DNA of 64,000 nt from Roseateles sp. XES5 (GTDB lineage Bacteria; Pseudomonadota; Alphaproteobacteria; Rhizobiales; Rhizobiaceae): contig NZ_CP084753.1 in NCBI RefSeq assembly GCF_020535545.1, forward strand, positions 744,001 through 808,000, in the 5' to 3' direction. A model generated the notes under the pieces. That model saw only the letters and a program-made list of their open reading frames with translations, was not told where the DNA came from and made no database searches. Positions 7,207-47,285 of this stretch are shown piece after piece; position 1 is the first letter of the stretch, and every line of letters begins with the position of its first letter. A program made the translations under genes and the position numbers.

Positions 7207-8538
7207 TCAGGCGGAAGCGCCCGCAGCGGTGCGCCGGTCCTTCAGCGAGGACAGCGCGAGATGGGCGATGCCGGCGACGAGGCCCGCGCTGATGGCCGTG
7301 GAAAACTGCGGCGCGTAGAATTCGACAACGAAGCCGACGGCCGAGCCGATCGCCCAGGAAAGAAACGGCGTCGAACGCCATTCCTTTTCCATCGCGCCCG
7401 CACTCTTGAAGATGTAGGCCTCGACCAGGAGGATCATGCCGATGGGCGGAACCACGATGCCGAGCAGCGACAGCCACTGGATGAAGAAAGCCCAGACATT
7501 GCCGGCGGCGATCACGATGCCGAGCACGCCGAGCACCACGGCGAGCAGCCGCATCTTCGAGCCGAGGATGCGCGACCAGCCGGTCGCCGCATTGTAGAGG
7601 CAGTGCGAGCAGACCGAGCCGAGATTGATGTAGAGGAACAGGAAGGCGAGCGCGCTGAGCCAGCCGATCTGCAACGTGTTCATGTAGCCGAACATGTTGT
7701 CCGCCCCGAACGGATTGGCGTTCGGCACCGCCAGCGCCGCCGTCAGGATGCCGCCGACCAGCATGGCGACGAGATTGGAGACCGGGAAGGCCGAGAAGGT
7801 CGCGATGAGCGAATGGCTGCCGGTCCTGGCCCAGCGGTTGAAGTCGGCGGTCACCGTGCCGGCATCGATGAAGAGCGCGATGACGACCGTCAGCCCGACC
7901 CCCATCGACATGGTGGCGACGCCGTTGTTGCCGGCATAGTTCCAGATCGCGTCGAAGGTGGTGGTCGAGGCCGCGTGCATCACCACGAAGAGCCCGAGCA
8001 CGAAGAACAGCGGCACCGAGACGAGGCCGATCAGGTGCAGGCCGCGCACGCCGATGAAGGTGATGGCGATATAGAGCAGGCCCGCGACGATGGTCATCGC
8101 CACATAACTCATCCCGTAGGTCGAGGCGATCAGCGCTCCGGTAATGCCTGTCTGCACGGCGAACCAGCCGAGCAGCAGCGTCGAGAGCAGGCCGGAGGCG
8201 AGCGCATAGCCCTTGGTGCCGAAGACGCCGGAGGCGATCAGTGCGAAGTTTCGCCCGCTCTTCGTCGCCGAAAGGCCGAGCGCGCCGACATAGGCGAACA
8301 TGATCAGGTTGCCGAGCACCATCGCGACGAGCGCGCGGGAAAAGCCCATGCCGAGCACGAGGATCGAGCCCGTCATGGAGCCGGTGATGATCGCCGGGAA
8401 CCCGGCCCAGACCGTCACCATGGAAAAGAGGCTGTGCCGGGCCGAAAGCGGCACGGGCGCATGTTCGTATTCTTCGCCGAGCACGTGGTCGGCATCGAGC
8501 GGCGACAGATCGCCTGGCCCTGTGGACTGTGTAGACAC
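7207..8538 (-). CDS. NCS1 / CodB-like cytosine-permease family transporter
   Basis: 443 residues with about 12 membrane segments and the NCS1 opening 'LGEEYEHAPVPLSARHSLFSMVTVWAGFPAI', followed by TM1 with unwound glycines. The family carries nucleobases, hydantoins or related N-heterocycles with sodium or protons. The GTG at 8538 has a strong GAGGGGA site six bases upstream; an ATG at 8553 is in frame but poorly spaced. It follows amiE by 69 bases in the same direction, so it may bring in an amide-like or heterocyclic substrate alongside the ABC transporter. The exact substrate is unknown. Confidence 0.85.
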   Translation of the reverse strand: MSTQSTGPGDLSPLDADHVLGEEYEHAPVPLSARHSLFSMVTVWAGFPAIITGSMTGSILVLGMGFSRALVAMVLGNLIMFAYVGALGLSATKSGRNFALIASGVFGTKGYALASGLLSTLLLGWFAVQTGITGALIASTYGMSYVAMTIVAGLLYIAITFIGVRGLHLIGLVSVPLFFVLGLFVVMHAASTTTFDAIWNYAGNNGVATMSMGVGLTVVIALFIDAGTVTADFNRWARTGSHSLIATFSAFPVSNLVAMLVGGILTAALAVPNANPFGADNMFGYMNTLQIGWLSALAFLFLYINLGSVCSHCLYNAATGWSRILGSKMRLLAVVLGVLGIVIAAGNVWAFFIQWLSLLGIVVPPIGMILLVEAYIFKSAGAMEKEWRSTPFLSWAIGSAVGFVVEFYAPQFSTAISAGLVAGIAHLALSSLKDRRTAAGASA

Positions 8539-8607
8539 GTTCGTTCCCCTCATGTCTCTTTTGTTGAAGGGACCACCCGGCGCGACGGCCGGATGGTCCG
8601 GCTTGCG

Positions 8608-9642
8608 TCAGCGATGGGCGTTGGCGTTGGGAATGCCCTCGATCGGGCATTCATCCGTGCCGACCGAGCCGCGGGTCATGGCCTCGACCATTTCGCGCGT
8701 CCCGTCCGGGTCGTTCACCCATTTGGCGTAGAAGTTGTACGGGCAGGAGGCGACGCCGCGGTCGCCTTCGCCGGAATTGATCATGCCGGTATAGCCACGG
8801 TGCAGCAGCTTGAAGAGATGGTTCTGCGACTGGCCGTTGCGACGGGCATCGCGGATGGCCGAGACGGAGAGCTGCGCATACTGGATGCCGTTCTCCTCCG
8901 TGCCGCATTCGCCCAACGTGCGCCCGTCGAAGCCGACGATCGCGGAATGGCCGAAATAGGAGTAGACCCCGTCGAAGCCGGCGGCATTGGCGACCGCCAC
9001 ATAGACGTTGTTCGCCCAGGCCATGGACTTGGAGATCTGCACCTGCTGCTCCTTGGCCGGATACATGTAGCCCTGGCAGCGGATGATAAGCTCGGCGCCC
9101 CGCATGGCGCAGTCGCGCCAGATCTCCGGGTAGTTGCCGTCGTCGCAGATGATGAGGCTGATCTTCAGGCCCTTCGGGCCCTCGGACACATAGGTGCAGT
9201 CACCCGGATACCAGCCCTCGATCGGCACCCAGGGCATGATCTTGCGGTACTTCTGGACGATTTCGCCCTTGTTGTTCATGAGGATGAGCGTGTTGTAGGG
9301 CGCCTTGTGCGGGTGCTCCTCGTGGCGCTCGCCGGTCAGCGAGAAGACGCCCCAGACATTGGCCTTGCGGCAGGCCTCGGCGAAGATCGCCGTTTCTTCG
9401 CCCGGGATCTGCGAGGCGGTCTCGTACATCTCCTTGGAATCGTACATGATCCCGTGGGTCGAATATTCCGGGAAGATGACCAGATCCATGCCCGGCAGGC
9501 CAACCTTCATGCCCTCCACCATCGCGGCGATCTTGCGGGCATTTTCCAGCACTTCGGCCTTGGTGTGCAGCCGCGGCATCTTGTAGTTCACGACAGCAAC
9601 GCCAACGGTGTCTTTGCTGCTGCTGATGTCACCATGATACAT
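8608..9642 (-). CDS. amiE: Aliphatic amidase (acylamide amidohydrolase)
   Basis: 344 residues, closely matching Pseudomonas AmiE in length and in long stretches such as '[17 protein letters not shown]' and '[17 protein letters not shown]'. The nitrilase-superfamily triad falls at the same numbers as in AmiE: Glu59 (FPEYS), Lys134 (KYRKIMPW) and Cys166 ([10 protein letters not shown]). It hydrolyses short aliphatic amides such as acetamide and propionamide to the acid and ammonia in the cytoplasm. The sequence differs clearly from formamidase AmiF. It is the sixth gene after the amiC-amiR regulators, directly after the ABC transporter ATPases, which is strong support for an amide-utilisation role. 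Confidence 0.95.
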
Positions 9643-9653
9643 TTCAAGTCTCC

Positions 9654-10349
9654 TTAGACGACGAGGTGGCTCTGGATGAGGTCATCGCCGAGCGCGCCGA
9701 TGTCGTCCGACACCGCCACGCTTCCGCGATTGAGGATCGCGAAGCGGTGCGAGGCCCGCCGCGCGAATTTGATGTTCTGTTCGACGAGGATCACGGCGAG
9801 GCCGTGCTTGCGGTTGAGGTCGATCAGCACGTCCTCGATCTGCTCGACGATGTTGGGCTGGATGCCCTCCGTCGGCTCGTCGAGAAGCAGGATCTTCGGC
9901 TCCGACAGCAGGGCCCGCGCGATGGCGAGCTGCTGCTGCTGGCCGCCGGAGAGATTGCCCCCGCGACGGCCGAGGAATTCCTTCAGGATCGGGAACAGGT
10001 CGAAGATGTGATCGGGGATCGTGCGCGCCGGCTTTTCCGCGGCGAAGGTGCCGAGCAGCAGGTTCTCGCGCACGGTGAAGTTCGGCAGGATGCCCCGCCC
10101 CTGCGGGACGTAGCCGAGCCCGGCACGCGCCCGCATATGGGTCGGCAGGCTGTTGATCTCCGCCCCGTCGAGCCGGATCGAGCCGGCGCAGCGCGACATG
10201 AGGCCGAGGATGGTGCGCAGCAGCGTCGTCTTGCCGACGCCGTTGCGCCCGAGCACCGTCAGGAACTCGCCTTCCCGCACCGAGAGCGAGACCGACTGAA
10301 GGGCGCGGCTGCGGCCGTAGAAGCCGTCGACATCGGAAAGCTCAAGCAT
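9654..10349 (-). CDS. urtE: Amide/urea ABC transporter ATP-binding protein (UrtE-like)
   Basis: 231 residues of a branched-chain-type (LivF/UrtE) ATPase. Walker A is GRNGVGKTT, the signature is [15 protein letters not shown], Walker B is [14 protein letters not shown], and the switch His is replaced by Gln in '[10 protein letters not shown]', which is normal for LivF and UrtE. The 'EGIQPNIV' stretch is typical of UrtE. The ATG at 10349 overlaps the end of the urtD-like gene by eight bases, so translation is coupled. It pairs with UrtD to power uptake through the UrtB/C permeases. amiE begins 11 bases downstream. Confidence 0.9.
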
Positions 10350-11106
10350 GGCCGATGCCTCCCGAACCGAGATAGGCCTCACGGACCTTCGCATCCTGCG
10401 AAACCGCATCGGCGGTGCCCTGCGCGAGCAGCTTGCCCTGATGCATCACCGAAACCGTCTCGGCGATGTCGCGCACGAAGCCCATGTCATGCTCGACGAC
10501 GATCAGCGTGTGTTTGCCGCGCAGCCGGTTGAAGAGCTCGGCGGTCATGTTGGTCTCATGCGCCGTCATGCCGGCGGTCGGCTCGTCCATGAGGATGAGC
10601 GCCGGGTCCTGGGCGAGGATCAGCGCGATCTCCAGCCATTGCGTCTGGCCGTGCGAGAGCTGCGCGGCCTGGGTTTCGAGCTGGTCTTCCAGCCCGACCA
10701 GCACGGCGAGGCGCTCCAGCCGCTCGGTGTCCGCCCCACCCGAGAAGCGGAAGAGATTGCGCCAGACGCCCGGATCGCGCGAGCAGCCGATCTCCAGGTT
10801 TTCCCGCACGGTCAGTTCGCGGAAGACGCTCGGCACCTGGAACTTGCGGCCGATGCCGGTGCGGGCGATGCGGAACTCCCTCAGGGCGTGGATGGGCGCG
10901 CCGCGGAAGACGATTTCGCCCGAGGTGATGCGGGACTTGCCGCAGATGAGGTCGAGCGTCGTCGATTTGCCGGCACCGTTCGGGCCGATCAGGCAGCGCA
11001 GCTCGCCCGCCGCCACCTCGAAGTCGAGCCGGTCGACCGCGATGAAACCCGAAAAGGCGACGGTCACCTGGTTGAGCGCGAGCAATTGCGCGCGGGCGGA
11101 CGTCAT
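10342..11106 (-). CDS. urtD: Amide/urea ABC transporter ATP-binding protein (UrtD-like)
   Basis: 254 residues of a LivG/UrtD ATPase. Walker A is GPNGAGKST, followed by 'TTLDLICGKSRITSGEI'. The signature is the UrtD-type QLSHGQTQWLEIA rather than LSGGQ, with Walker B 'ALILMDEPTAGMT' and switch His in 'VVEHDMGFV'. It forms the second nucleotide-binding subunit. Its ATG overlaps the preceding permease stop by four bases (ATGA) and its own end overlaps urtE by eight, showing a tightly coupled operon. The UrtD-specific signature supports urea or short amides rather than branched-chain amino acids. Confidence 0.9.
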   Translation of the reverse strand: MTSARAQLLALNQVTVAFSGFIAVDRLDFEVAAGELRCLIGPNGAGKSTTLDLICGKSRITSGEIVFRGAPIHALREFRIARTGIGRKFQVPSVFRELTVRENLEIGCSRDPGVWRNLFRFSGGADTERLERLAVLVGLEDQLETQAAQLSHGQTQWLEIALILAQDPALILMDEPTAGMTAHETNMTAELFNRLRGKHTLIVVEHDMGFVRDIAETVSVMHQGKLLAQGTADAVSQDAKVREAYLGSGGIGHA

Positions 11107-12233
11107 AGCGCACCTCCGAGATGGGGTTGGGATTTGGATGGGGAATGCTCGGTGGCATGGCGGGCGCCGCCCTCGCGCTCTGCCTTAGGGAAGCGGCGCA
11201 CGAGGGCTTCGAAGGCGCCCGCCAGCCCCTTCGGCATGAACAGCACGATGAGGACAAACAGGCCGCCCATGACGAGGGTCCAGGTTTCGAGGAAGGCTTC
11301 GGATTCCGAGAGCGCCCCTTGCACGCCGGTGACGAGGATCGCCCCCAGCATGGCGCCGACGAGGCTCTGCCGGCCGCCGACGGCGACCCAGATCACGATG
11401 GAAAGGCTGAGCGGCACGCCGAGGAAGGTCGGCGAGGCGAATTCCATGACGATCGTGTAGAGCATGCCCGCAAGGCCCGCGATGGCAGCGGAAAGGGCGA
11501 AGACGACGGTCTTGTAGAGCGCGACATCGTAGCCGAAGAAGCGTACCCGCTCCTCCTGGTCACGCACCGCCTGCAGGATGAGGCCGGTCTTGCTGCGCGA
11601 GACGGCGAGCGCGAAGAACAGCGTGACGGTGAGGCAGGCCGCCACGAGATAATAGGTTGAGGCGGAATAGGCATCGAAGGTCAGACCGGCAATGTCGAAC
11701 TGCGCAAGGTCGGTGATGCCGTTGAAGCCGCCGGTATAGCTCTGCTGGTCGACGATGATGAGGTTGACCACCACCATGGCGGCGAGCGTGATGATCGCCG
11801 CATAGACCCCGGCGATGCGCCCGCCGAACATGAACCAGCCGAGAAGCGCGGCGAACAGCGCCGGGACAAGGATGCCTGCGAGAAGCGCGATGGGCATGGA
11901 ATAGAAGGGCGACCAGATCCAGGGCAGTTCGGTGACGTTGTTCCAGACCATGAAGTCGGGAAGGCCGTCGCTGCCGGTATGGATCGGTACCGTCTTCAGC
12001 TTCAGGAACATGGCCATGCAATAGGAGCCGAGACCGAAGGTCGTGGCCTGGCCGAGATTGAGGATGCCGGCATAGCCCCAGGACAGGCTGAGCGCGATCG
12101 CCAGCATGCCGAAGATCAGGTAACGGGCATATTTGTTGAGCAGGAAGGCGTCGTCGACCAGCAGGGGCACGGCGAGGATCGCCAGACAGACGACGCCGGA
12201 GAGAAGGATTTGGCGGGAGACTTTTCCAGACAA
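11103..12233 (-). CDS. urtC: Amide/urea ABC transporter permease (UrtC-like)
   Basis: 376 residues with eight to ten membrane helices, and the LivM/UrtC landmark 'LSWGYAGILNLGQATTFGLGSYC' near residue 55. A cytoplasmic 'AVRDQEERVRFFGYDVALYK' EAA-like loop contacts the ATPases. The only sensible start is a TTG at 12233, seven bases after GAGAGG; no ATG or GTG gives a full first helix. The weak start codon may lower output relative to the binding protein. It lies 27 bases after the UrtB-like gene and overlaps urtD by four bases. Confidence 0.88.
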   Translation of the reverse strand: MSGKVSRQILLSGVVCLAILAVPLLVDDAFLLNKYARYLIFGMLAIALSLSWGYAGILNLGQATTFGLGSYCMAMFLKLKTVPIHTGSDGLPDFMVWNNVTELPWIWSPFYSMPIALLAGILVPALFAALLGWFMFGGRIAGVYAAIITLAAMVVVNLIIVDQQSYTGGFNGITDLAQFDIAGLTFDAYSASTYYLVAACLTVTLFFALAVSRSKTGLILQAVRDQEERVRFFGYDVALYKTVVFALSAAIAGLAGMLYTIVMEFASPTFLGVPLSLSIVIWVAVGGRQSLVGAMLGAILVTGVQGALSESEAFLETWTLVMGGLFVLIVLFMPKGLAGAFEALVRRFPKAEREGGARHATEHSPSKSQPHLGGAL

Positions 12234-12260
12234 GGCGGAACCTCTCGTTGACGCGGGCGG

Positions 12261-13130
12261 TCAGGCGCGCACACGCGGGGCGAACAAGCCCTGCGGCCGG
12301 AACCGGATGATGATGACGATGGCGATGAGGACGAGCGCCTTGGCGATCGTGTCGTTGCTGTAATAGGCAAGAAGGCCGGAGGCTTCGCCGAGCACGGTGG
12401 AGCTTGCGAGCGTGCCGACGAGGCTCTGCACGCCGCCGAGCACGACCACCATGAAGGCGTCGACGACATAGGTCGTGCCCATTTCCGGCGACACGCTCTT
12501 CAGGGGCGAGATCAGCGCGCCGGCAAGTCCGGCGATACCGGCCCCATAGGCGAAGGTCAGCCGGTAGGCGCGGGCGGAATTGATGCCGAAGCTCGATGCG
12601 ATGGCGCGGTTCTGGGTGATCGCCCGAAGCTTCAGGCCGAAGGACGTGTAGCGGTAGATGCACCAGGTCAGCACGAAGAGGCCGAGCGCGACGGCGAGCA
12701 CGAAGAGGCGGTAGGCCGAGTCGGTCGCGCCGAGGATATCGACGCTGCCGGAGAGCGACGGTGGCATCTGCACGTAGCGCAGCTCGCCGCCGGCCGTCAG
12801 ACGCACGATCTGCTGCGTCATGACGCCAAGGCCCCAGGTCGCGAGGATCGTGTCCAGCGGCCGGTCATAGAGATGGCGGATGACCGCGACCTCGATCAGC
12901 CAGCCGAGCGCAGCGATCAGGAGGAAGATGACGGCAAGGCTTGCCAGAAGGCTCCAGCCGAACTGGCTTTGCAGCAGCCAGGCACAGTAGGCGCCGAGCA
13001 TCACGAATTCGCCATGGGCGAGATTGATGACCCCGGTCACCCCGTAGATGATCGCAAGCCCGAGGGCCACGAGAAGCAGGATCGAGGACAGGCTGAGGCC
13101 TGTCAGAATTTGCGAAACGACGAAGTCCAT
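12261..13130 (-). CDS. urtB: Amide/urea ABC transporter permease (UrtB-like)
   Basis: 289 residues with about eight membrane segments. The LivH/UrtB motif 'AIIYGVTGVINLAHGEFVMLGAY' is at the N-terminus, and the coupling loop 'RAITQNRAIASSFGINSARAYRL' is in the middle. A short 289-residue form without the long periplasmic domain is usual for amide/urea importers. The ATG at 13130 starts the first helix directly. It is separated from the binding protein gene by 65 bases that hold a strong hairpin (13155-13183), which may set different expression levels. Confidence 0.88.
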   Translation of the reverse strand: MDFVVSQILTGLSLSSILLLVALGLAIIYGVTGVINLAHGEFVMLGAYCAWLLQSQFGWSLLASLAVIFLLIAALGWLIEVAVIRHLYDRPLDTILATWGLGVMTQQIVRLTAGGELRYVQMPPSLSGSVDILGATDSAYRLFVLAVALGLFVLTWCIYRYTSFGLKLRAITQNRAIASSFGINSARAYRLTFAYGAGIAGLAGALISPLKSVSPEMGTTYVVDAFMVVVLGGVQSLVGTLASSTVLGEASGLLAYYSNDTIAKALVLIAIVIIIRFRPQGLFAPRVRA

Positions 13131-13154
13131 CGGCACCTTCTCCAGGAGGTTGGA

Positions 13155-13183
13155 CCGGCGGCCGCCCGGAAGACGGCCGCCGG
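13155..13183 (-). other. Intercistronic hairpin after the binding-protein gene
   Basis: A perfect 10-bp GC stem (CCGGCGGCCG / CGGCCGCCGG) with a nine-base loop lies between the binding protein and first permease genes. There is no following U-tract, so it is more likely an mRNA 3'-end stabiliser or partial attenuator than a full terminator. Confidence 0.6.
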
Positions 13184-13195
13184 CTGCTCGGGGGA

Positions 13196-14443
13196 TCAGA
13201 CCTCCTTGAGGCCTTCGGCGGTGCACTTCTGGTTGGGATAGGCGCTGTAGGGATTGGGCTCGAGCCAGTCGGCCGATTGCGTCAGGATCTCGAACTGCCC
13301 GTCCGCCTTGCATTGCCCGATCTTCGGGCGCAGCCAGCAGTGCAGGTTCTCCGGCTCCACCTTCACGAGGCCCTGCGGCGCCTTGTACTGCTCGTTCTTC
13401 ACCGCCTCGCGGATGGCGAGCGGACCGATGTCGCTCGCCGCGAGCTTGGCGACCGCCTGCTTGAAGAGGTGGACCTGGAAGTAGGAGGATTCCGAGACGA
13501 AATGCGTGACCTTGTCGCCGCCCCAGCGGGAGCGGTAGGCCTCGACGAAGCGCTGGTTCTCCGGGGAATCGAAGACCATGAAGTAGGGCGCGGAGGTGAA
13601 ATGGCCGGCGGCGGCATCACCGCCCATGGCCGCGACCTCGTTCTCGGAGGTGGTGAGGCTCGCCATCGGCATGGTGGCCGGGTCAAGGCCGGCCGCACGA
13701 TACTGCCGGTGCAGCGCCACCACGGAATCGCCGACCACCGTCGAGAAGATGACGTTGGGCTTTTCCGAGCGGAACTTGTTGATGACGGAGGAGAACTCCG
13801 AATGACCGAGCGGCACGTATTCCTCGGCGATGACCTCCGCGCCGAGCCCTTCGAGCAGCTTTTTGCAGTAGTTGTTCTCTTCCTTCGGATAGATGTAGTT
13901 CGAGCCGATCAGGTACCAGCGCTTGCCGAACTTCTCGACCAGCCAGGGAATGAAGTCGTCCTGCTGCTGGTTCGGCACCGCGCCCGTATAGATGACGTTC
14001 TTGGAGCATTCGCGGCCCTCGTAGAGCGTCGGATACCAGAAGAGGTTCTCCTGCTTCTCGAAGACCGGCAGCACGGCCTTGCGGCTCGCCGAGGTATAGG
14101 AGCCGAAGACGGAAACGCAACGGTCGCTGAGCACCAGCTTGCGGGCCTTTTCGGCGAAGGTCGCCGGATCCGAGGCCGGGTCTTCCACCACCGGCGTGAT
14201 CTTCAGCCCGTTGATGCCGCCACTGGCATTGATCTCCTCGATCGCCATCAGCGTCGCCTTGTTCAGCGACTCCTCGATGATCGCCGTCGTGCCGGTCAGC
14301 GAGAAGAGCACGCCCACCTTGATCTCACCGTCCTGCGCAAAGGCCAGCGAGGAATTCTTCGACCAGATATGAGGGAAGCCCACCAGCGATACCGCGCCGG
14401 CTGCCGCCCCGATTTTCAGAAATTCGCGCCTGTTCTTGTTCAC
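13196..14443 (-). CDS. urtA: Amide/urea ABC transporter substrate-binding protein (UrtA/FmdD-like)
   Basis: 415 residues. A Tat signal is visible (NRREFLK followed by a hydrophobic run, cleavage near 'AFAQDG'). The mature part is a type I periplasmic fold of the urea/short-chain amide class: 'KVGVLFSLTGTTAIIEESLNKAT', 'SRKAVLPVFE', 'YPTLYEGREC' and 'NVIYTGAVPNQQ'. The same landmarks appear in cytoplasmic AmiC upstream, so transporter and sensor are homologous. The GTG at 14443 follows GGAG by seven bases and sits only 15 bases after a terminator-like hairpin (14458-14510), so expression should depend on read-through past it. Confidence 0.92.
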   Translation of the reverse strand: MNKNRREFLKIGAAAGAVSLVGFPHIWSKNSSLAFAQDGEIKVGVLFSLTGTTAIIEESLNKATLMAIEEINASGGINGLKITPVVEDPASDPATFAEKARKLVLSDRCVSVFGSYTSASRKAVLPVFEKQENLFWYPTLYEGRECSKNVIYTGAVPNQQQDDFIPWLVEKFGKRWYLIGSNYIYPKEENNYCKKLLEGLGAEVIAEEYVPLGHSEFSSVINKFRSEKPNVIFSTVVGDSVVALHRQYRAAGLDPATMPMASLTTSENEVAAMGGDAAAGHFTSAPYFMVFDSPENQRFVEAYRSRWGGDKVTHFVSESSYFQVHLFKQAVAKLAASDIGPLAIREAVKNEQYKAPQGLVKVEPENLHCWLRPKIGQCKADGQFEILTQSADWLEPNPYSAYPNQKCTAEGLKEV

Positions 14444-14457
14444 CCTCTGTCTCCATC

Positions 14458-14547
14458 AAAAAACAAAGGCCCCGAAGCGCTCCGCCGGACTGGCGGATCG
14501 TTTCGGGGCCTCTTCGCCTCTGGATTTGTTTGCGGCGTCCTCGCCGC
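14458..14547 (-). promoter_or_regulatory. Candidate ANTAR leader C with intrinsic terminator before urtA
   Basis: Reading on the minus strand: a stem GCGGC-GAGGAC-GCCGC (14532-14547), an 11-base linker, then GGC-GAAGAG-GCC (14507-14518) whose 3' arm is also the 5' arm of a strong terminator hairpin (14468-14510) followed by TTTGTTTTTT. Both loops have G4 but G rather than A at position 1, so this is the least canonical of the three leaders. Forming the second small hairpin would prevent the terminator. Confidence 0.5.
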
Positions 14548-14622
14548 GGGGAATGCGCTTGTCTGGCAGGTCCGGCTGCGACGCATCGCGTGCTTTGGCC
14601 GGATCGACTTCAGGTCATGTAG

Positions 14623-14700
14623 AAAAACAAAAAACCCCACGCTCCGCTCTCGCGGACCCGTGGGGTATCGTCACCCTTATTTGCGCAGCGCCTTTGCCGC
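14623..14700 (-). promoter_or_regulatory. Candidate ANTAR leader B with intrinsic terminator after amiR
   Basis: On the minus strand, hairpin P1 GCGGC-AAAGGC-GCTGC (14685-14700) has a hexaloop with A1 and G4. After eight bases, P2 GGGT-GACGAT-ACCC (14663-14676) follows; its 3' arm overlaps ACCCCACG, the 5' arm of a terminator (14634-14666, about 8 bp outer stem plus an inner TCCGC/GCGGA stem) with a TTTTTTGTTTTT tail. This is the expected geometry for AmiR-dependent antitermination, although P2 has G instead of A at loop position 1. Confidence 0.65.
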
Positions 14701-14715
14701 GACAATATGAAAACG

Positions 14716-15420
14716 CTAACTGAGAAGTTCGTGCGAGTCAATCACCGCCGCGGCGACGGCGCCGATCGTCACGCGCTTCTCCATCGCCTGCTTGCGCAGG
14801 AAGTTGTAGGCCTCCTCTTCGCTGAGGTTTTTCAAGCGGATGAGCAGCGCCTTCGCCCGCTCGACGAGGCGCATGGTGCGCAGGTTCTCGTCGAGCTTGT
14901 CGATCCGCCCGCGAAGGCGCCGCTCATACTGGAAATGCTCGCGCGCCATCATCAGCACCGCCTGGATCATCCGGGCCGTCGCCGGATAATGCAGCATGCC
15001 ATGCGCCGCGCAGTTGTGGACGAGCTTGAGGTTGAGCGGCGCCTTGCCGTCATCCACGAGGATCAGCGCGGAGGACGGCTCCCCCGGCACCCAGGGAATG
15101 CGCTGCGGCAGGTCGTCCGAAAGCAGGCAGAAGATCGCGTCGTATTGCAGCGGGATCTGCGCCGGCTTCGGCCAGATGTGCCGCACGGCGACGCGCTGGC
15201 GCTGCAACTCCCGGATCAGGAACTCGCCATGGTCATCGCGCTCGACGATGACGGCGACGGTGAATTCGGCCGGAAGGCCCGCCTGACGCGGACGCTCCTC
15301 CGCGGCAGGCCGGTTCTCCGGCTTTTGCCCACCGATCCAGCGGTCGTGACCGTAGTCCGCCCTCGACATTTCCGGCATGCGCTCCTCCCGCGGGGGACGG
15401 CGTGTTCCCGTTTCCTGCAT
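14716..15420 (-). CDS. amiR: AmiR-like ANTAR transcription antiterminator
   Basis: 234 residues. The N-terminal two thirds is a pseudo-receiver ('VAVIVERDDHGEFLIRELQRQRV') without a clear phospho-acceptor set, followed by a coiled coil (around residues 150-185) and a C-terminal ANTAR three-helix domain ('MRLVERAKALLIRLKNLSEEEAYNFLRKQAM'). ANTAR proteins bind paired hexaloop hairpins in nascent RNA and stop terminators forming. In Pseudomonas, AmiR is held inactive by AmiC until an amide binds. The ATG follows the amiC stop with no gap, which supports co-production in a complex. It is about 38 residues longer than Pseudomonas AmiR, mostly at the N-terminus. Confidence 0.9.
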   Translation of the reverse strand: MQETGTRRPPREERMPEMSRADYGHDRWIGGQKPENRPAAEERPRQAGLPAEFTVAVIVERDDHGEFLIRELQRQRVAVRHIWPKPAQIPLQYDAIFCLLSDDLPQRIPWVPGEPSSALILVDDGKAPLNLKLVHNCAAHGMLHYPATARMIQAVLMMAREHFQYERRLRGRIDKLDENLRTMRLVERAKALLIRLKNLSEEEAYNFLRKQAMEKRVTIGAVAAAVIDSHELLS

Positions 15421-16572
15421 TCAGCAATTCTCCAGACAACGGCCGTAGCCGATGAGATAGGGATCGGCCTTCACGCTCGCCTGCGACTGGAATACGATGT
15501 CGAACTGGCCCTGCCGGTTCGCCCGGCCGATGCGCGTCCAGACATCCGCATGGCCCCAGACGGGGTTGATCGACACACTCCCCTGCGGCGCCTCGAATTC
15601 CGCCCCCATGACGAAGGTGCGCAATTGCTTGGTGTCGAGGGAATTGGTCTCCTCCAGCGTGCGAGCGAAGAGATTGACCTGAAAATACGAGGCTTCGAGG
15701 CACATGTTGGTCGGCTCGTCGCCGCCATAGCGCTTCTGGTAGTGGCTGACGAAGCTGTTGTTGCGCGCCGTCTCCACGCCCTGGAAATAGGACGCCGCCG
15801 TATAGTGCCCCTCCCCGACATCGTAGCCCATGGCGCGGATTTCCGCCTCGGTCGTGGTGAGGCTGGCAATGGGCACGGTCTTCGGATTGAGACCGAGATC
15901 GTGATAGGCCTGATAGAGGAAGGTGGTGGATTCGCCGACGACGGTGGAGAAGATCACGTCCGGCTGCGCCTGCTTGATCTCGCGCACCAGCGGCATGAAC
16001 TCGCTGCGGTCGGCCTCGAGGCGCAGATACCGTTCCCCGACGATGGTCCCGCCATTGTTGCGCACCAGTTCCCGCATCACCCGGTTGGATTCGCGCGGAT
16101 AGACGTAGTCCGAGCCGACGAAGAAGAAGCGGTTGCCGAACTGGCTCATCAGCGCCCGGCAGAGCTGCACGGAATTCTGGTTCGGCGTCGCGCCGGTATA
16201 GATGACGTTCGGCGAGAACTCGAAGCCCTCGTAGAGCGTCGGATACCAGAGCAGGCCATCCAGCCGCTCGACGACCGGCAGGACCGCCTTGCGGCTGGAG
16301 GAGGTGTAGCAGCCGAAGATCGTGCTGACGCCGTCCTCGACCATCAGGCGCTTGGCATATTGCCCGTAGGAGCGGATTTCCGAGCCCGGATCGTAGACGA
16401 TCGGCTCGATGGGGCGCCCGTTGACGCCGCCCCGGTCATTGATCTCGTCGATGGCGATCAGCGTGCCACGCAACTGCGTTTCCTCGATGACCGACATGAA
16501 TCCGGTCTTCGAGAAGAGAACCCCGACGCGCCATGGCGCGGAGGTCCGCTGATTTCGGTTGAGAGTTCCCAT
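15421..16572 (-). CDS. amiC: AmiC-like cytoplasmic amide sensor and negative regulator
   Basis: 383 residues of a type I periplasmic-binding-protein fold with no signal peptide, so it should be cytoplasmic. AmiC landmarks are clear: 'VGVLFSKTGFMSVIEETQLRGTLIAIDEIN', 'SRKAVLPVVERLDGLLWYPTLYEGFEFSPN', 'IYTGATPNQNS', 'FVGSDYVYPRESNRVMRE' and 'SLTTTEAEI'. In Pseudomonas, AmiC binds acetamide and releases AmiR. It is the first gene of the operon, with its own promoter and a terminator-bearing leader upstream, so the AmiC-AmiR pair likely controls its own expression as well as that of the downstream transporter and amidase. Confidence 0.92.
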   Translation of the reverse strand: MGTLNRNQRTSAPWRVGVLFSKTGFMSVIEETQLRGTLIAIDEINDRGGVNGRPIEPIVYDPGSEIRSYGQYAKRLMVEDGVSTIFGCYTSSSRKAVLPVVERLDGLLWYPTLYEGFEFSPNVIYTGATPNQNSVQLCRALMSQFGNRFFFVGSDYVYPRESNRVMRELVRNNGGTIVGERYLRLEADRSEFMPLVREIKQAQPDVIFSTVVGESTTFLYQAYHDLGLNPKTVPIASLTTTEAEIRAMGYDVGEGHYTAASYFQGVETARNNSFVSHYQKRYGGDEPTNMCLEASYFQVNLFARTLEETNSLDTKQLRTFVMGAEFEAPQGSVSINPVWGHADVWTRIGRANRQGQFDIVFQSQASVKADPYLIGYGRCLENC

Positions 16573-16715
16573 TGTTTCGGTTCATCCCTTAATTTGATCC
16601 CCTTTTTTTGATCGGCCACCGCTGGTGAGGTCTTGCGCCCCATCGCTTCCGCTTGCCGAGATGCCGCCTGTCCGGTCCGCTGGGCGCGCCTGTTTTCTTT
16701 CTCCCGCCAGAAAAC

Positions 16716-16795
16716 AAAAAACCTCCCAGCCTCGGAACGATGCGAGGCACAGGAGGCGACATTGCGCTCAGAAGTATGGCGGCACCCTTGCCGCC
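16716..16795 (-). promoter_or_regulatory. ANTAR-type antitermination leader A with terminator before amiC
   Basis: On the minus strand, P1 is GGCGGC-AAGGGT-GCCGCC (16778-16795). After eight bases comes P2, GAGCGC-AATGTC-GCCTC with one bulged C (16753-16769). Both six-base loops have A1 and G4, the ANTAR-RNA signature. The 3' arm of P2 contains the CCTC used by the terminator stem CCTCC/GGAGG (16722-16756, inner stem GCCTCG/CGAGGC, then TTTTTTGTTTTC). P2 and the terminator are therefore mutually exclusive. amiC begins 143 bases further on. Confidence 0.78.
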
Positions 16796-16818
16796 CGTCA
16801 CCAGATTGACGTTCCGTT

Positions 16819-16848
16819 ACGATAGGATCGAGAAATGCGGAATGTCAA
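16819..16848 (-). promoter_or_regulatory. Sigma-70-type promoter of the amide operon
   Basis: A consensus TTGACA -35 box (16843-16848) is separated by 18 bases from a TATCGT -10-like box (16819-16824) on the minus strand. The predicted start, near 16812, lies just before hairpin P1 of leader A, giving a leader of about 240 bases ahead of amiC. Confidence 0.65.
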
Positions 16849-17172
16849 CATGCGGTTCTTCGAGCCCTGATGCCGCCGCCCTATTGCCTGCCTGCCCGCT
16901 GCACCCCGTCGAAAACCGCCGCGGCCGAGGCCCGCCCCCCTTCCCCGCGATCTGCCGACCACGCCCCTGTCCGGGGTCGCAGGAAAGAAATTACACCACA
17001 TTCACATTCAAGTCACTTGAACAGAAGTGCGATTGTGTTTACAAAAAGGCATGGGAGCAAGCGGAACCAAAGAAATCCGCCTTCCAGGAGGGGCATCCAT
17101 TTCATCGACAGTTTCCGGCTGATGGCCGGCGCCCCTTTGCGTGCCTTTTCGCCAACCAGAGGGAACCTAACC
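16849..17172. other. Divergent intergenic region with a palindrome ahead of the peptide transporter
   Basis: No gene is seen here. It contains the inverted repeat TTCAAG-TCA-CTTGAA (17007-17021) in an A/T-rich stretch, about 150 bases before the binding protein start. This could be the operator of the peptide-transporter operon, for example for the XRE-cupin regulator encoded at its end (inference). A GAGGGAA ribosome site precedes the GTG at 17173. Confidence 0.4.
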
Positions 17173-18726
17173 GTGACGATCAACCGACGTGAATTCATGA
17201 AGGCGAGCGCCCTCGGCGTCGCCGCGCTTTCGCTACCGAGCCTTGCCAGCCGGGCTCTGGCCGCCTCCGGTCCGCTCATCTTCGCAGCCGCCGGCACCGT
17301 GACCAGCAGCTGGGACCCGACCTCGCACACCGTCGCCCCGCAGATCACCGCCGAGGGCTTTCTCTTCGGCCATCTCACCAAATGCCCGATGAGCGAGGCC
17401 AATCCGGGCGAAATCCTGCCGGACCTTGCGACCGAATGGTCCGTGATCGACGAGCACACGCTGGAATACAAGCTGCGCCAGGGCGTCACCTTCCATGACG
17501 GCAAGCCCTTCACCGCGGCCGACGTGAAGGCGACCTACGAATATGCCTCCAACCCCGACCGCCCGGCCTCGGCCTGGTATCCGGGCCGCGTCGATGTCGA
17601 GGTCGTCGACGACTTCACGGTGCGGCTGAGCACCAAGCGGTACGGCTATCCGGCGCTGAACTTCTGGTACGTCTCGAGCTTCCTGCCGATCCTCTCGGCC
17701 GCCGACGTCGCCAATCCGGAGACGCTGAAGCAGCGCCCGAACGGCACCGGCCCGTTCAAATATGTCGAGACCACCGGCGACCAGATCAAGTTCGCCGCCT
17801 TCGACAAATTCCATGAGGGCAAGCCTTCCATCGAGGAGATCGTCTGGGCCTATGTTCCGGATGCGAACACGCGCGTGCTCGGGCTTCTCAACGGTCAGTA
17901 CCACCTCACCGAACGTCTGGAGCCGGAGCAGTATCTCTCCCTTCAGAAGGAAGCGAACCTCAAGACGGACCGGTCGCTGTCCAGCGAGAACAAGTACCTG
18001 CACTTCCGCTGCAACAAGCCGCCCTTCGACGATCCACGCATCCGGCTGGCGGTCTGCCATGCCATCGACCGCTCGCAGGTCCTTGCCGTGGTCGGCGAGG
18101 CCGGACAGGCCTCGAACTGCCATGTCTCCCCGGTAAAGTTCGGCTTCACCGACGTGAAGGGTTATCCGGAATACAACCCGGAAAAGACGCAGGCCCTGCT
18201 TGCCGAGGCCGGCTTCCCCAATGGCCAGGGCCTGCCGGAAATCGAATACATCACCTCGGTCGGCTTCTATCCGAAGACGCGCGAATATGGCGAACTCATC
18301 ACCGCCATGCTGCAGGAACAGGGTTTCCCGGTAAAGCTCACCACTCTCGAGCCCGCCGCCTGGGAAGAGCAGCTCTATCGCCGCGCCGACGGCCAGGGTC
18401 CCGGCCATATCATCGATGTCGGCTGGATCACCGGCTCGCCCGAACCCGACCTCGTGCTGCGGCCGAACTACCATTCCAAGTTCGCGCTCATCAACGGCGT
18501 CAGCGATGCCGATATCGACGCCTCCCTCGACAAGGAGCGCGGCGCCACTTCCACGGAGGAACGCCTGAAGATCCTGCAGGAAGAGACCCTGCCGCTCATC
18601 GCCGGGAAGGCGCCGAGCATCTCGCTCTTCTCCTCGGTCTTCCTGCGCGCCATGAGCGCCAAGCTCGACGGCGTCAAGTTCTATCCGAACGGCCCCATCG
18701 ATCTGTCCAAGGCGACGCTGTCCTGA
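17173..18726 (+). CDS. Peptide-type ABC transporter substrate-binding protein (SBP family 5)
   Basis: 517 residues with a Tat signal (NRREFMK, hydrophobic core, cleavage after 'SRALAAS'). The mature protein has the family-5 layout: 'LATEWSVIDEHTLEYKLRQGVTFHDGKPFTAADV', and later 'NGTGPFKYVETTGDQIKF' and 'DDPRIRLAVCHAIDR'. The GTG start has GAGGGAA seven bases upstream; the open frame extends further 5' without homology. Members bind peptides, glutathione or other polar compounds. The downstream M20 amidohydrolase suggests an N-acyl or peptide-like ligand is hydrolysed after uptake (inference). Confidence 0.88.
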   Translation: MTINRREFMKASALGVAALSLPSLASRALAASGPLIFAAAGTVTSSWDPTSHTVAPQITAEGFLFGHLTKCPMSEANPGEILPDLATEWSVIDEHTLEYKLRQGVTFHDGKPFTAADVKATYEYASNPDRPASAWYPGRVDVEVVDDFTVRLSTKRYGYPALNFWYVSSFLPILSAADVANPETLKQRPNGTGPFKYVETTGDQIKFAAFDKFHEGKPSIEEIVWAYVPDANTRVLGLLNGQYHLTERLEPEQYLSLQKEANLKTDRSLSSENKYLHFRCNKPPFDDPRIRLAVCHAIDRSQVLAVVGEAGQASNCHVSPVKFGFTDVKGYPEYNPEKTQALLAEAGFPNGQGLPEIEYITSVGFYPKTREYGELITAMLQEQGFPVKLTTLEPAAWEEQLYRRADGQGPGHIIDVGWITGSPEPDLVLRPNYHSKFALINGVSDADIDASLDKERGATSTEERLKILQEETLPLIAGKAPSISLFSSVFLRAMSAKLDGVKFYPNGPIDLSKATLS

Positions 18727-46156: not shown

Positions 46157-47218
46157 ATGAACACTGATGCGAAATTGAACGTCGTCCCGTTCGTCAGCGT
46201 CGATCACATGATGAAGCTGGTCCTGAAGGTCGGCATCGACCGGTTTCTGACGGAACTGGCGGCAACCATCGAAGAAGACTTCCGCCGCTGGCCGGTCTTC
46301 GACAAGAGCGCCCGCGTGGCCAGCCATTCGCCGGTGGGCGTGATCGAGCTGATGCCCGTGGCCGACGCCCAGCGCTATGCCTTCAAGTACGTCAACGGCC
46401 ACCCCATCAACACCAGCCGCGGCCTCTACACCGTGATGGCTTTCGGCGTGCTGGCCGAGGTGTCCACCGGCTACCCGCTGCTGCTCTCCGAGCTGACTCT
46501 CAGCACAGCCCTGCGCACGGCGGCCACCTCGGCCATGGCGGCCAAGGCCCTGGCCCGCCCGAACTCCCGCCGCATGGCCCTGATCGGCAACGGCGCGCAG
46601 AGCGAATTCCAGGCTCTGGCCTTCAAGTCGCTGCTCGGCGTCGACACGCTGCGCCTCTACGACATCGACGCATCGGCGACCGGCAAATGCGCCCGCAACC
46701 TCGCCGGCCTCGGCTTCACCATCGTGGAATGTTCCTCCGTCGAGGAAGCGGTGGAAGGCGCCGATATCGTCACCACCGTGACGGCCGACAAGCAGTATGC
46801 GACGATCCTTTCGGACAACCATGTCGGTCCGGGCGTGCATATCAACGCGGTCGGCGGCGACTGCCCGGGCAAGACCGAACTCAGCAAGGACATCCTGCTG
46901 CGCTCGGACATCTTCGTCGAATATCCGCCGCAAACGCGCATCGAAGGCGAGATCCAGCAATTGCCGGCCGAACATCCCGTCATCGAGCTCTGGCAGGTCA
47001 TGACCGGTGAGGTCGAAGGCCGCCGGAGCGCGGATCAGATCACGCTCTTCGACAGCGTGGGCTTCGCCATCGAGGACTTCTCCGCCCTTCGCTACGTGCG
47101 CGACAAGATCTCGGAATTCGGCATGTTCGCCGAACTCGATCTCCTCGCCGATCCCGACGAGCCGCGCGACCTCTACGGCATGCTGCTGCGCTGCGAAGAG
47201 AAGCTCAACGCGGCCTGA
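46157..47218 (+). CDS. ocd: Ornithine cyclodeaminase
   Basis: 353 residues of the OCD/mu-crystallin family. The NAD-binding motif is 'MALIGNGAQSEFQALAF' and the substrate region 'KYVNGHPINTSRGLYTVMAFGVLAEVSTGYPLLLSELTLSTALRTAATSAM' carries the OCD Lys and Arg. It turns ornithine directly into proline and ammonia, completing the arginine pathway with the arginase. The 5' half uses GTG, CTG and GCC codons more than its neighbours, which may mean partial foreign origin. The start is supported by GGAGGAAAG. Confidence 0.92.
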   Translation: MNTDAKLNVVPFVSVDHMMKLVLKVGIDRFLTELAATIEEDFRRWPVFDKSARVASHSPVGVIELMPVADAQRYAFKYVNGHPINTSRGLYTVMAFGVLAEVSTGYPLLLSELTLSTALRTAATSAMAAKALARPNSRRMALIGNGAQSEFQALAFKSLLGVDTLRLYDIDASATGKCARNLAGLGFTIVECSSVEEAVEGADIVTTVTADKQYATILSDNHVGPGVHINAVGGDCPGKTELSKDILLRSDIFVEYPPQTRIEGEIQQLPAEHPVIELWQVMTGEVEGRRSADQITLFDSVGFAIEDFSALRYVRDKISEFGMFAELDLLADPDEPRDLYGMLLRCEEKLNAA

Positions 47219-47234
47219 TATCCGCATAAATTGC

Positions 47235-47275
47235 CACCGCCCGGTTTGCCGACAGGCAGCTCGGGCGGTGTTTTT
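47235..47275 (+). terminator. Intrinsic terminator after ornithine cyclodeaminase
   Basis: A 9-bp stem CACCGCCCG / CGGGCGGTG with an 18-base loop, then TTTTT. It is 16 bases after the ocd stop and ends the arginase operon. Confidence 0.8.
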
Positions 47276-47285
47276 ACACCGACCG

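Follow-up and report, generated by a model that had tools for sequence, protein, structure and literature searches.

Organization of the amiC-amiR-urt-amidase operon

The minus strand of the window, the 64-kb stretch of DNA from the soil bacterium Roseateles sp. XES5 analysed here, carries in order a leader element (unit A), amiC, amiR, a 272-nt gap containing two further elements (units B and C), urtA, urtBCDE and an amidase gene. The amiC gene (15421..16572) encodes an AmiC-type amide sensor with a Pfam Peripla_BP_5 domain and a match to AmiC of P. aeruginosa (PDB 1pea, E 4.5e-86). It is followed by the gene for an AmiR-type antiterminator (14716..15420), which combines the Pfam domains AmiR_N and ANTAR and matches the P. 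aeruginosa chain PDB 1qo0_D at E 2e-12. The first gene behind units B and C (13196..14443) encodes a UrtA-type substrate-binding protein, whose TIGR03407 score of 418 bits is below the cut-off of 492.75 and whose possible TAT signal scored slightly below the Pfam cut-off. All four of the urtB, urtC, urtD and urtE-type ABC transporter genes (9654..13133) exceed their NCBIfam cut-offs, and the aliphatic amidase AmiE (8608..9642) matches NF009802 with 720 bits. AmiC, AmiR with AmiR_N and ANTAR, and an aliphatic amidase are hence found in one cluster, as in the P. aeruginosa gene set.

The genome encodes three ANTAR proteins, of which AmiR adjoins units B and C. A second AmiC-like and ANTAR gene pair, followed by genes judged by eye to be dipeptide-type ABC permeases, lies elsewhere in the genome (L003, C3:261076-264228), and no strict unit was found in that stretch. 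A cytosine-permease-like gene is located 3' of amiE in the window (7207-8553).

Anatomy of the three units

The original prediction placed two terminator-bearing units between amiR and urtA, and both are present there on the minus strand, with exactly the four loop sequences that it had given. In unit B, hairpin P1 (14684..14701) has the loop AAAGGC with A1 and G4, and hairpin P2 (14663..14676) has the loop GACGAT with G1 and G4. In unit C, P1 (14532..14547) and P2 (14507..14518) have the loops GAGGAC and GAAGAG, both with G1 and G4; all four hairpins were located by pattern scan and alignment. The P1 and P2 stems comprise 6 and 4 bp in unit B and 5 and 3 bp in unit C, and each unit thereby shows two hexaloop hairpins of at least 3 bp joined by a linker. 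The predicted intrinsic terminator of unit B (14623..14666) is composed of a hairpin at 14666-14634 and a U tract at 14633-14623, and that of unit C (14458..14510) of a hairpin at 14510-14468 and a U tract at 14467-14458, shortly before the urtA start at 14443. In both units, the 5' arm of the predicted terminator includes the 3' arm of P2, a sharing of bases that had also been claimed, so that P2 and the terminator are mutually exclusive.

The third unit expected near 16716 was recovered as unit A (16721..16795, minus strand), 5' of amiC. Its P1 (16795-16778) has the loop AAGGGT, its P2 (about 16769-16753) has the loop AATGTC and one bulged C, and its terminator hairpin (16757-16721) is followed by a U-rich tract. 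RNAfold predicted the terminator form as the minimum-energy state of all three units. It closed G1 with C6 in loop 1 of unit C, leaving an AGGA tetraloop, and drew loop 1 of unit A likewise.

Detection and chance expectation

A pattern scanner requiring two G4 hexaloops, an overlapping terminator and a U tract, which was designed after the units had been seen, reported units B and C and nothing else on both strands of the window. Unit A is missed by this scanner because of the bulged base in its P2. Eight dinucleotide shuffles of one 64-kb strand yielded 0, 1, 1, 2, 1, 0, 1 and 0 units, and among 300 shuffles of the gap at least one unit appeared in three and two units in none. A generic terminator scan with another definition left terminators A, B and C all unreported and called three elsewhere, against 4.4 expected, and Rfam at its gathering thresholds gave no match in the whole window.

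Two covariance models were built, R1 from unit B sequences only and R2 from unit C sequences only. When the window was searched directly, unit A scored 35.4 bits with R1 (match at 16712-16796) and 27.3 bits with R2, and neither model reported a unit between urtE and amiE. In the 5.8-Mb genome, 150 candidates were scored out of 5962 for R1 and 8655 for R2. Among these, unit C ranked second with R1 (35.3 bits; next, 21.4) and unit B ranked second with R2 (39.8 bits; next other place 24.9, with the reverse strand of C excluded). Since unit A was unreported among the 150 scored candidates of either search, these ranks hold only within the scored candidates. The two units nevertheless detect each other, the B-only model recognising C and the C-only model recognising B. 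A weak R1 match (19.5 bits, E 0.031) was also noted on the plus strand of the window at 47208-47278. Of the weak matches in the genome searches, three (L079, L088 and L089) were inspected and discarded, two lying in apparently coding DNA and one being a plain terminator hairpin.

Conservation of the tandem pair in related bacteria

AmiR relatives were collected from 394 family genomes with the own genome included (75 at E<=1e-10) and, beyond the family, from 397 order genomes (12 at E<=1e-25) and 385 class genomes (4 at E<=1e-25). Ten loci came from named genomes of Shinella, Metarhizobium, Gellertiella, Mesorhizobium, a Boseaceae bacterium and metagenome-assembled genomes (MAGs). The window itself (L002, L004) was dropped before counting, as were L005-L007, L009 and L010, duplicates of L034, L038, L039, L040 and L043. 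Wider stretches replaced some loci, namely L057-L066 for L008 and L011-L019, and L067-L076 for L044-L050, L052, L054 and L055. After the removal of duplicates, AmiR reached at least 58% in 19 relatives, and urtA is adjacent in 18 of them. The remaining one, L064 (G377), stands outside the 18 because urtA is not adjacent, and was kept in the tree and in the unit A alignment.

The persistence of B and C in relatives had been named in advance as a test of the prediction, and two terminator units occupy the amiR-urtA gap in all 18 relatives with adjacent urtA. R1, trained on B, detected C at E<=0.0011 in 17 of the 18, L062 being the exception with E 0.33, and R2, trained on C, detected B in every one at E<=0.0028. 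The strict scanner alone missed unit C in six (L034, L039, L059, L060, L062 and L063) owing to a five-base loop, the terminator tail or the loss of G4 in P2; in L041, L042 and L061, the P2 that it chose for unit C differs from the one used in the alignment. An equivalent of unit A was aligned in 20 of 20 sequences (the window, the 18 and G377). In L058-L061 and L063, this unit precedes a cytosine-permease-like gene that is itself 5' of amiC.

With stricter filters, R1 at E<=1e-4 gave a match in 16 of 388 family genomes. Fourteen of these have an AmiR of at least 58%, and the others are G251, with an AmiR-like protein at E 6.5e-19, and G252 (L107), in which the contig breaks inside amiR. G252 was a later find that belongs neither to the 18 nor to any model. 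Kept in this way across related bacteria, the tandem pair looks like a deliberate double lock.

Covariation was measured for the stems of both units; because the sequences are related, the shuffle counts should not be read as probabilities. In unit B, 98.8% of the P1 and P2 cells are paired, and four of nine pairs show double-sided changes against 1.5 in shuffles, a count reached by 4 of 500 shuffles and falling to 0-1 when the partners were slid. For P1 plus the terminator of unit B, 96.0% of cells are paired, which 2 of 500 shuffles equalled; the covariation score was reached by 1 of 500 and the four double-change pairs by 63 of 500. P1 and P2 of unit C are 99.3% paired and almost invariant, and they show a single double-change pair (reached by 25 of 500 shuffles) because the stems hardly vary. 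In P1 plus the terminator of unit C, ten of 22 pairs carry double changes; nine of the ten belong to the terminator, and none of 500 shuffles was as high.

Promoter and the spacer between units B and C

A sigma-70-like promoter match (TTGACA, 18 nt, TATCGT) was found by promoter scan on the minus strand at 16819..16848, before unit A. It is the only match in 12500-18500, where 0.9 would be expected by chance. TTGAC precedes the upstream unit in 12 of 12 regions compared (the window, L034-L043 and L008; L058-L063 and L075 not included).

Alternatively, the amiC-amiR transcript might end at unit B, and a promoter between units B and C might start a urt transcript of its own with unit C as its leader. 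With its start set 8 nt beyond hairpin B and its end at P1 of unit C, the spacer measures 78-83 nt in the window and in L034-L038, the five relatives closest to it, which would leave room for a promoter. It shrinks, however, to 22-23 nt in five of 19 sequences, a length that argues against a promoter in this interval, and to 29 nt in two more. The spacer also lacks evident conservation beyond close relatives, and a scan for the strict sigma-70 consensus found no promoter-like match in that of the window. A second transcript beginning between the units thus appears very improbable.

Loop codes and the AmiR reader

G occupies position 4 in all four loops of units B and C in the window, and A occupies position 1 in only one of them, loop 1 of unit B. 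The published definition of the ANTAR dual hairpin (Ramesh et al. 2012, PMC3369931) includes A1 in each loop; because A1 is absent from three of the four loops, the tandem pair was filed as an ANTAR-like variant rather than a strict member. The same paper reports that mutation of A1 or G4 lowered induction in E. faecalis. In the EutV-RNA structure (PMC8934654), A1 receives no specific contact, Tyr164 stacks on G4 and Met172 plugs the loop, and the authors suggest that the Met plug excludes tetraloops. This would count against AmiR binding at loop 1 of unit C in the form predicted by RNAfold, although loop 1 of unit A was drawn likewise. Tyr205 and Met213 of AmiR align with EutV Tyr164 and Met172 in the 6wsh alignment, given an inferred 2-residue chain offset.

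Over 19 sequences, loop 1 of unit B has A1 and G4 in all 19, and its loop 2 has A1 in nine and G4 in 19. Loop 1 of unit C has A1 in none and G4 in 18, and its loop 2 has A1 in seven and G4 in 15. For unit A, all 20 sequences show G4 in loop 1 and 19 of them also A1, L040 and L043 having one additional base in this loop; in loop 2, A4 occurs in seven of 20, all within the L058-L064 lineage. Unit C therefore differs consistently from units A and B at position 1 of loop 1, whereas the A4 of loop 2 goes with a lineage and is common to units A and C. Without A1 in loop 1, unit C may act as a weaker gate, or AmiR may control it only in part.

Taken further, the same loops could mean that only unit B, together with unit A, is controlled by AmiR, and that unit C acts as a terminator, partly decayed or kept as a backup, which lowers urtA expression by a fixed factor or provides insulation. 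Such a role would suit the counts of A1 (0/19 in loop 1) and G4 (15/19 in loop 2), as well as the state of unit C in individual relatives: a five-base loop in L034, an atypical 4-bp first hairpin in L062 and no first hairpin fitting the model in G252, the C terminator being kept in L062 and both terminators being present in G252. Partial decay may indeed have occurred in some lineages. Yet G4 of loop 1 is retained in 18 of 19 rows (with the pentaloop of L034 counted; L062, read by hand, has it as well) and across about ten differing loop 1 sequences, the P1/P2 geometry is mostly preserved, and R1, the unit B model, picks up unit C. Nor does A4 in loop 2 reflect decay of C alone, since it is also present in unit A of that lineage (7/20). 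In addition, the single unit of outgroups adjoins urtA, as unit C does, so that C is not obviously the spare copy. Unit C as a mere terminator is thus considered unlikely.

The distinct loop 1 could alternatively mark unit C as the target of another regulator, an ANTAR protein such as NasT, which would create an AND gate for amide and a second nitrogen signal. The three ANTAR proteins of the own genome and the systematic difference of C loop 1 from loop 1 of A and B would both accord with this. On the other side, five of the 19 tandem-carrying genomes (G188, G118, G218, G131 and G1153) keep B and C with AmiR as their only ANTAR protein, which makes another ANTAR reader of unit C unlikely. This count includes G118 (L043, a MAG), whose amiR has one in-frame TAG, G1153, a MAG of unstated completeness, and G131 (L062), with its atypical C hairpin. 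A second regulator at unit C is the least probable of the readings weighed here. The in-frame TAG in the L043 amiR may be an assembly error or indicate a broken gene.

Evolution of the tandem arrangement

An AmiC tree of 35 rows was calculated, from which the distant AmiR relatives L021-L024, L026, L027, L029, L031-L033, L051, L053 and L056 were left out. The 20 tandem carriers (the window, the 18 and G377) all fall on one side of a single branch with support 99/97, and the tandem trait requires one change on the tree against a shuffled mean of 11.6. A single origin of the tandem is compatible with this tree, which fits such a history and does not prove it.

A single unit precedes urtA in the amiC-amiR-urtA arrangement of six outgroup loci (L065, L066, L067, L068, L070 and L076). 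R1 and R2, which were not trained on such units, detected no upstream unit in these six, of which L070 and L076 offer no more than about 0.4 and 1.4 kb of upstream sequence. The number of gates seems to have risen from one to three. Read by hand, loop position 4 in the single units of L065, L066, L068 and L070 is mostly A instead of G. The conserved G4-stacking Tyr is replaced by Phe and Ile in the AmiR proteins of L065 and L066 and kept in those of L068 and L070. It is possible that loop position 4 and this AmiR residue co-evolved in the outgroups.

In G377, the B-C pair lies immediately 5' of amiE and apart from amiR; a divergent unit stands at a distance of 142 nt, and the 19.9-kb stretch showed no close urt genes. 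The pair thus need not adjoin amiR in order to stand before a structural gene. The promoter scan called no promoter on the strand of the G377 pair. TTGACT with TAGTCT 17 nt further precedes the pair, uncalled by that scan, and TTGACT/TATCCT was rejected as a promoter since its hexamers are merely 12 nt apart. The same genome carries six ANTAR-type units within about 10 kb (L094, 4673-15092), including the B-C pair and the divergent unit. In G118, a unit-B-like leader and a second dual hairpin lie on the minus strand (L093, 7276-7458) before a cytosine-permease-like gene (cytP), about 12 kb from amiR; with no terminator seen after the second dual hairpin, they were not accepted as a further tandem.

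Proposed mechanism

Units B and C are probably two complete ANTAR-type gates in series, relieved by AmiR, within a three-gate operon. The observed basis of this reading is the anatomy of the units, their covariation and conservation, the grouping of the carriers on the tree and the co-occurrence with AmiR; from these we infer AmiR binding, antitermination, multiplicative tightness and weaker affinity at unit C. The core of the original prediction, a series of ANTAR-type leaders in an operon of amiC, amiR, urt and amidase genes, is supported by anatomy and conservation. The steep, amide-dependent switch proposed with it would be a putative consequence of such a series.

A single transcript would start 5' of unit A. 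In the absence of amide, AmiC would hold AmiR and RNA polymerase would tend to halt at unit A; any polymerase passing amiC-amiR would then meet unit B and next unit C before reaching urtABCDE-amiE. In the presence of amide, AmiR would be freed and would bind the emerging hexaloop hairpins, with G4 placed against the ANTAR Tyr and Met acting as the plug. By favouring P1 and P2 over the terminator at each unit, AmiR would let polymerase pass A, B and C in turn. The regulators would consequently lie behind one gate, and the transporter and amidase behind three. Provided that read-through multiplies from gate to gate, the leakage of the costly genes would shrink with each gate, and the sensor would remain at hand. 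Unit C, with no A1 in loop 1, is probably the weaker AmiR site and would be the gate needing most free AmiR.

A more specific version is put forward tentatively, as a possibility with less than even chances. It holds that a back-to-back gate of single origin, with different loop codes, reads the release of AmiR at two thresholds, which would give a supralinear switch for the transporter and amidase and leave the regulators behind one gate.

Comparison with known systems and significance

The ami operon of P. aeruginosa has a single antitermination leader directly before amiE. The operon described here shares with it the amide sensor AmiC, AmiR and the aliphatic amidase, and departs from it in having three units, in placing amiC-amiR first and in including a Urt-type transporter; a single leader directly before amiE is not what is found.

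The original prediction named only a single such leader, in the Pseudomonas ami system. Operons with several ANTAR terminators in series are already known, however: the E. faecalis eut operon has four, before eutP, eutG, eutS and eutA (PMC3369931). The present units resemble that EutV system in their two small hexaloop hairpins, in the overlap of P2 with an intrinsic terminator and in the serial terminators within an operon. The eut terminators, however, are interspersed before different genes, whereas two stand back to back in one gap here; the regulators are AmiC and AmiR instead of a two-component system, and both loops of unit C in the window lack A1. The same paper reports at least 13 ANTAR attenuators in six transcription units of Desulfotomaculum acetoxidans (PMC3369931), a regulon that likewise has more attenuators than transcription units when the counts in its Figure 9 legend are compared.

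In the enterobacterial bglGFB operon (PMC2646131), the antiterminator gene is located between a leader terminator and one before the structural genes, and the same protein relieves both. The layout with terminators before and after the antiterminator gene is shared, but the BglG protein and its RNA site are unrelated to those proposed here, and bgl has two terminators in all, of which one, not two, separates regulator and structural genes. Pfam shows only AmiR_N and ANTAR in AmiR, so the resemblance to BglG/SacY-type systems is one of layout and not of family.

Among open-licence papers, searched by titles and abstract openings, no description of back-to-back ANTAR terminators or analogues was found. 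What is new is that a single gap contains two complete gates back to back, stably kept in one clade, and that loop 1 of unit C consistently lacks A1. Because A1 is absent in one gate but not in its neighbour, and both are presumably read by the same AmiR, the pair would separate the role of A1 from that of G4, a question that the EutV-RNA structure (PMC8934654) does not answer. More broadly, the operon is a naturally occurring and evolutionarily stable case in which to test why RNA gates would be stacked in a catabolic operon, with one gate before the regulators and three before the structural genes; since more distant relatives show one gate, the effect of the added gates would be measurable by comparison.
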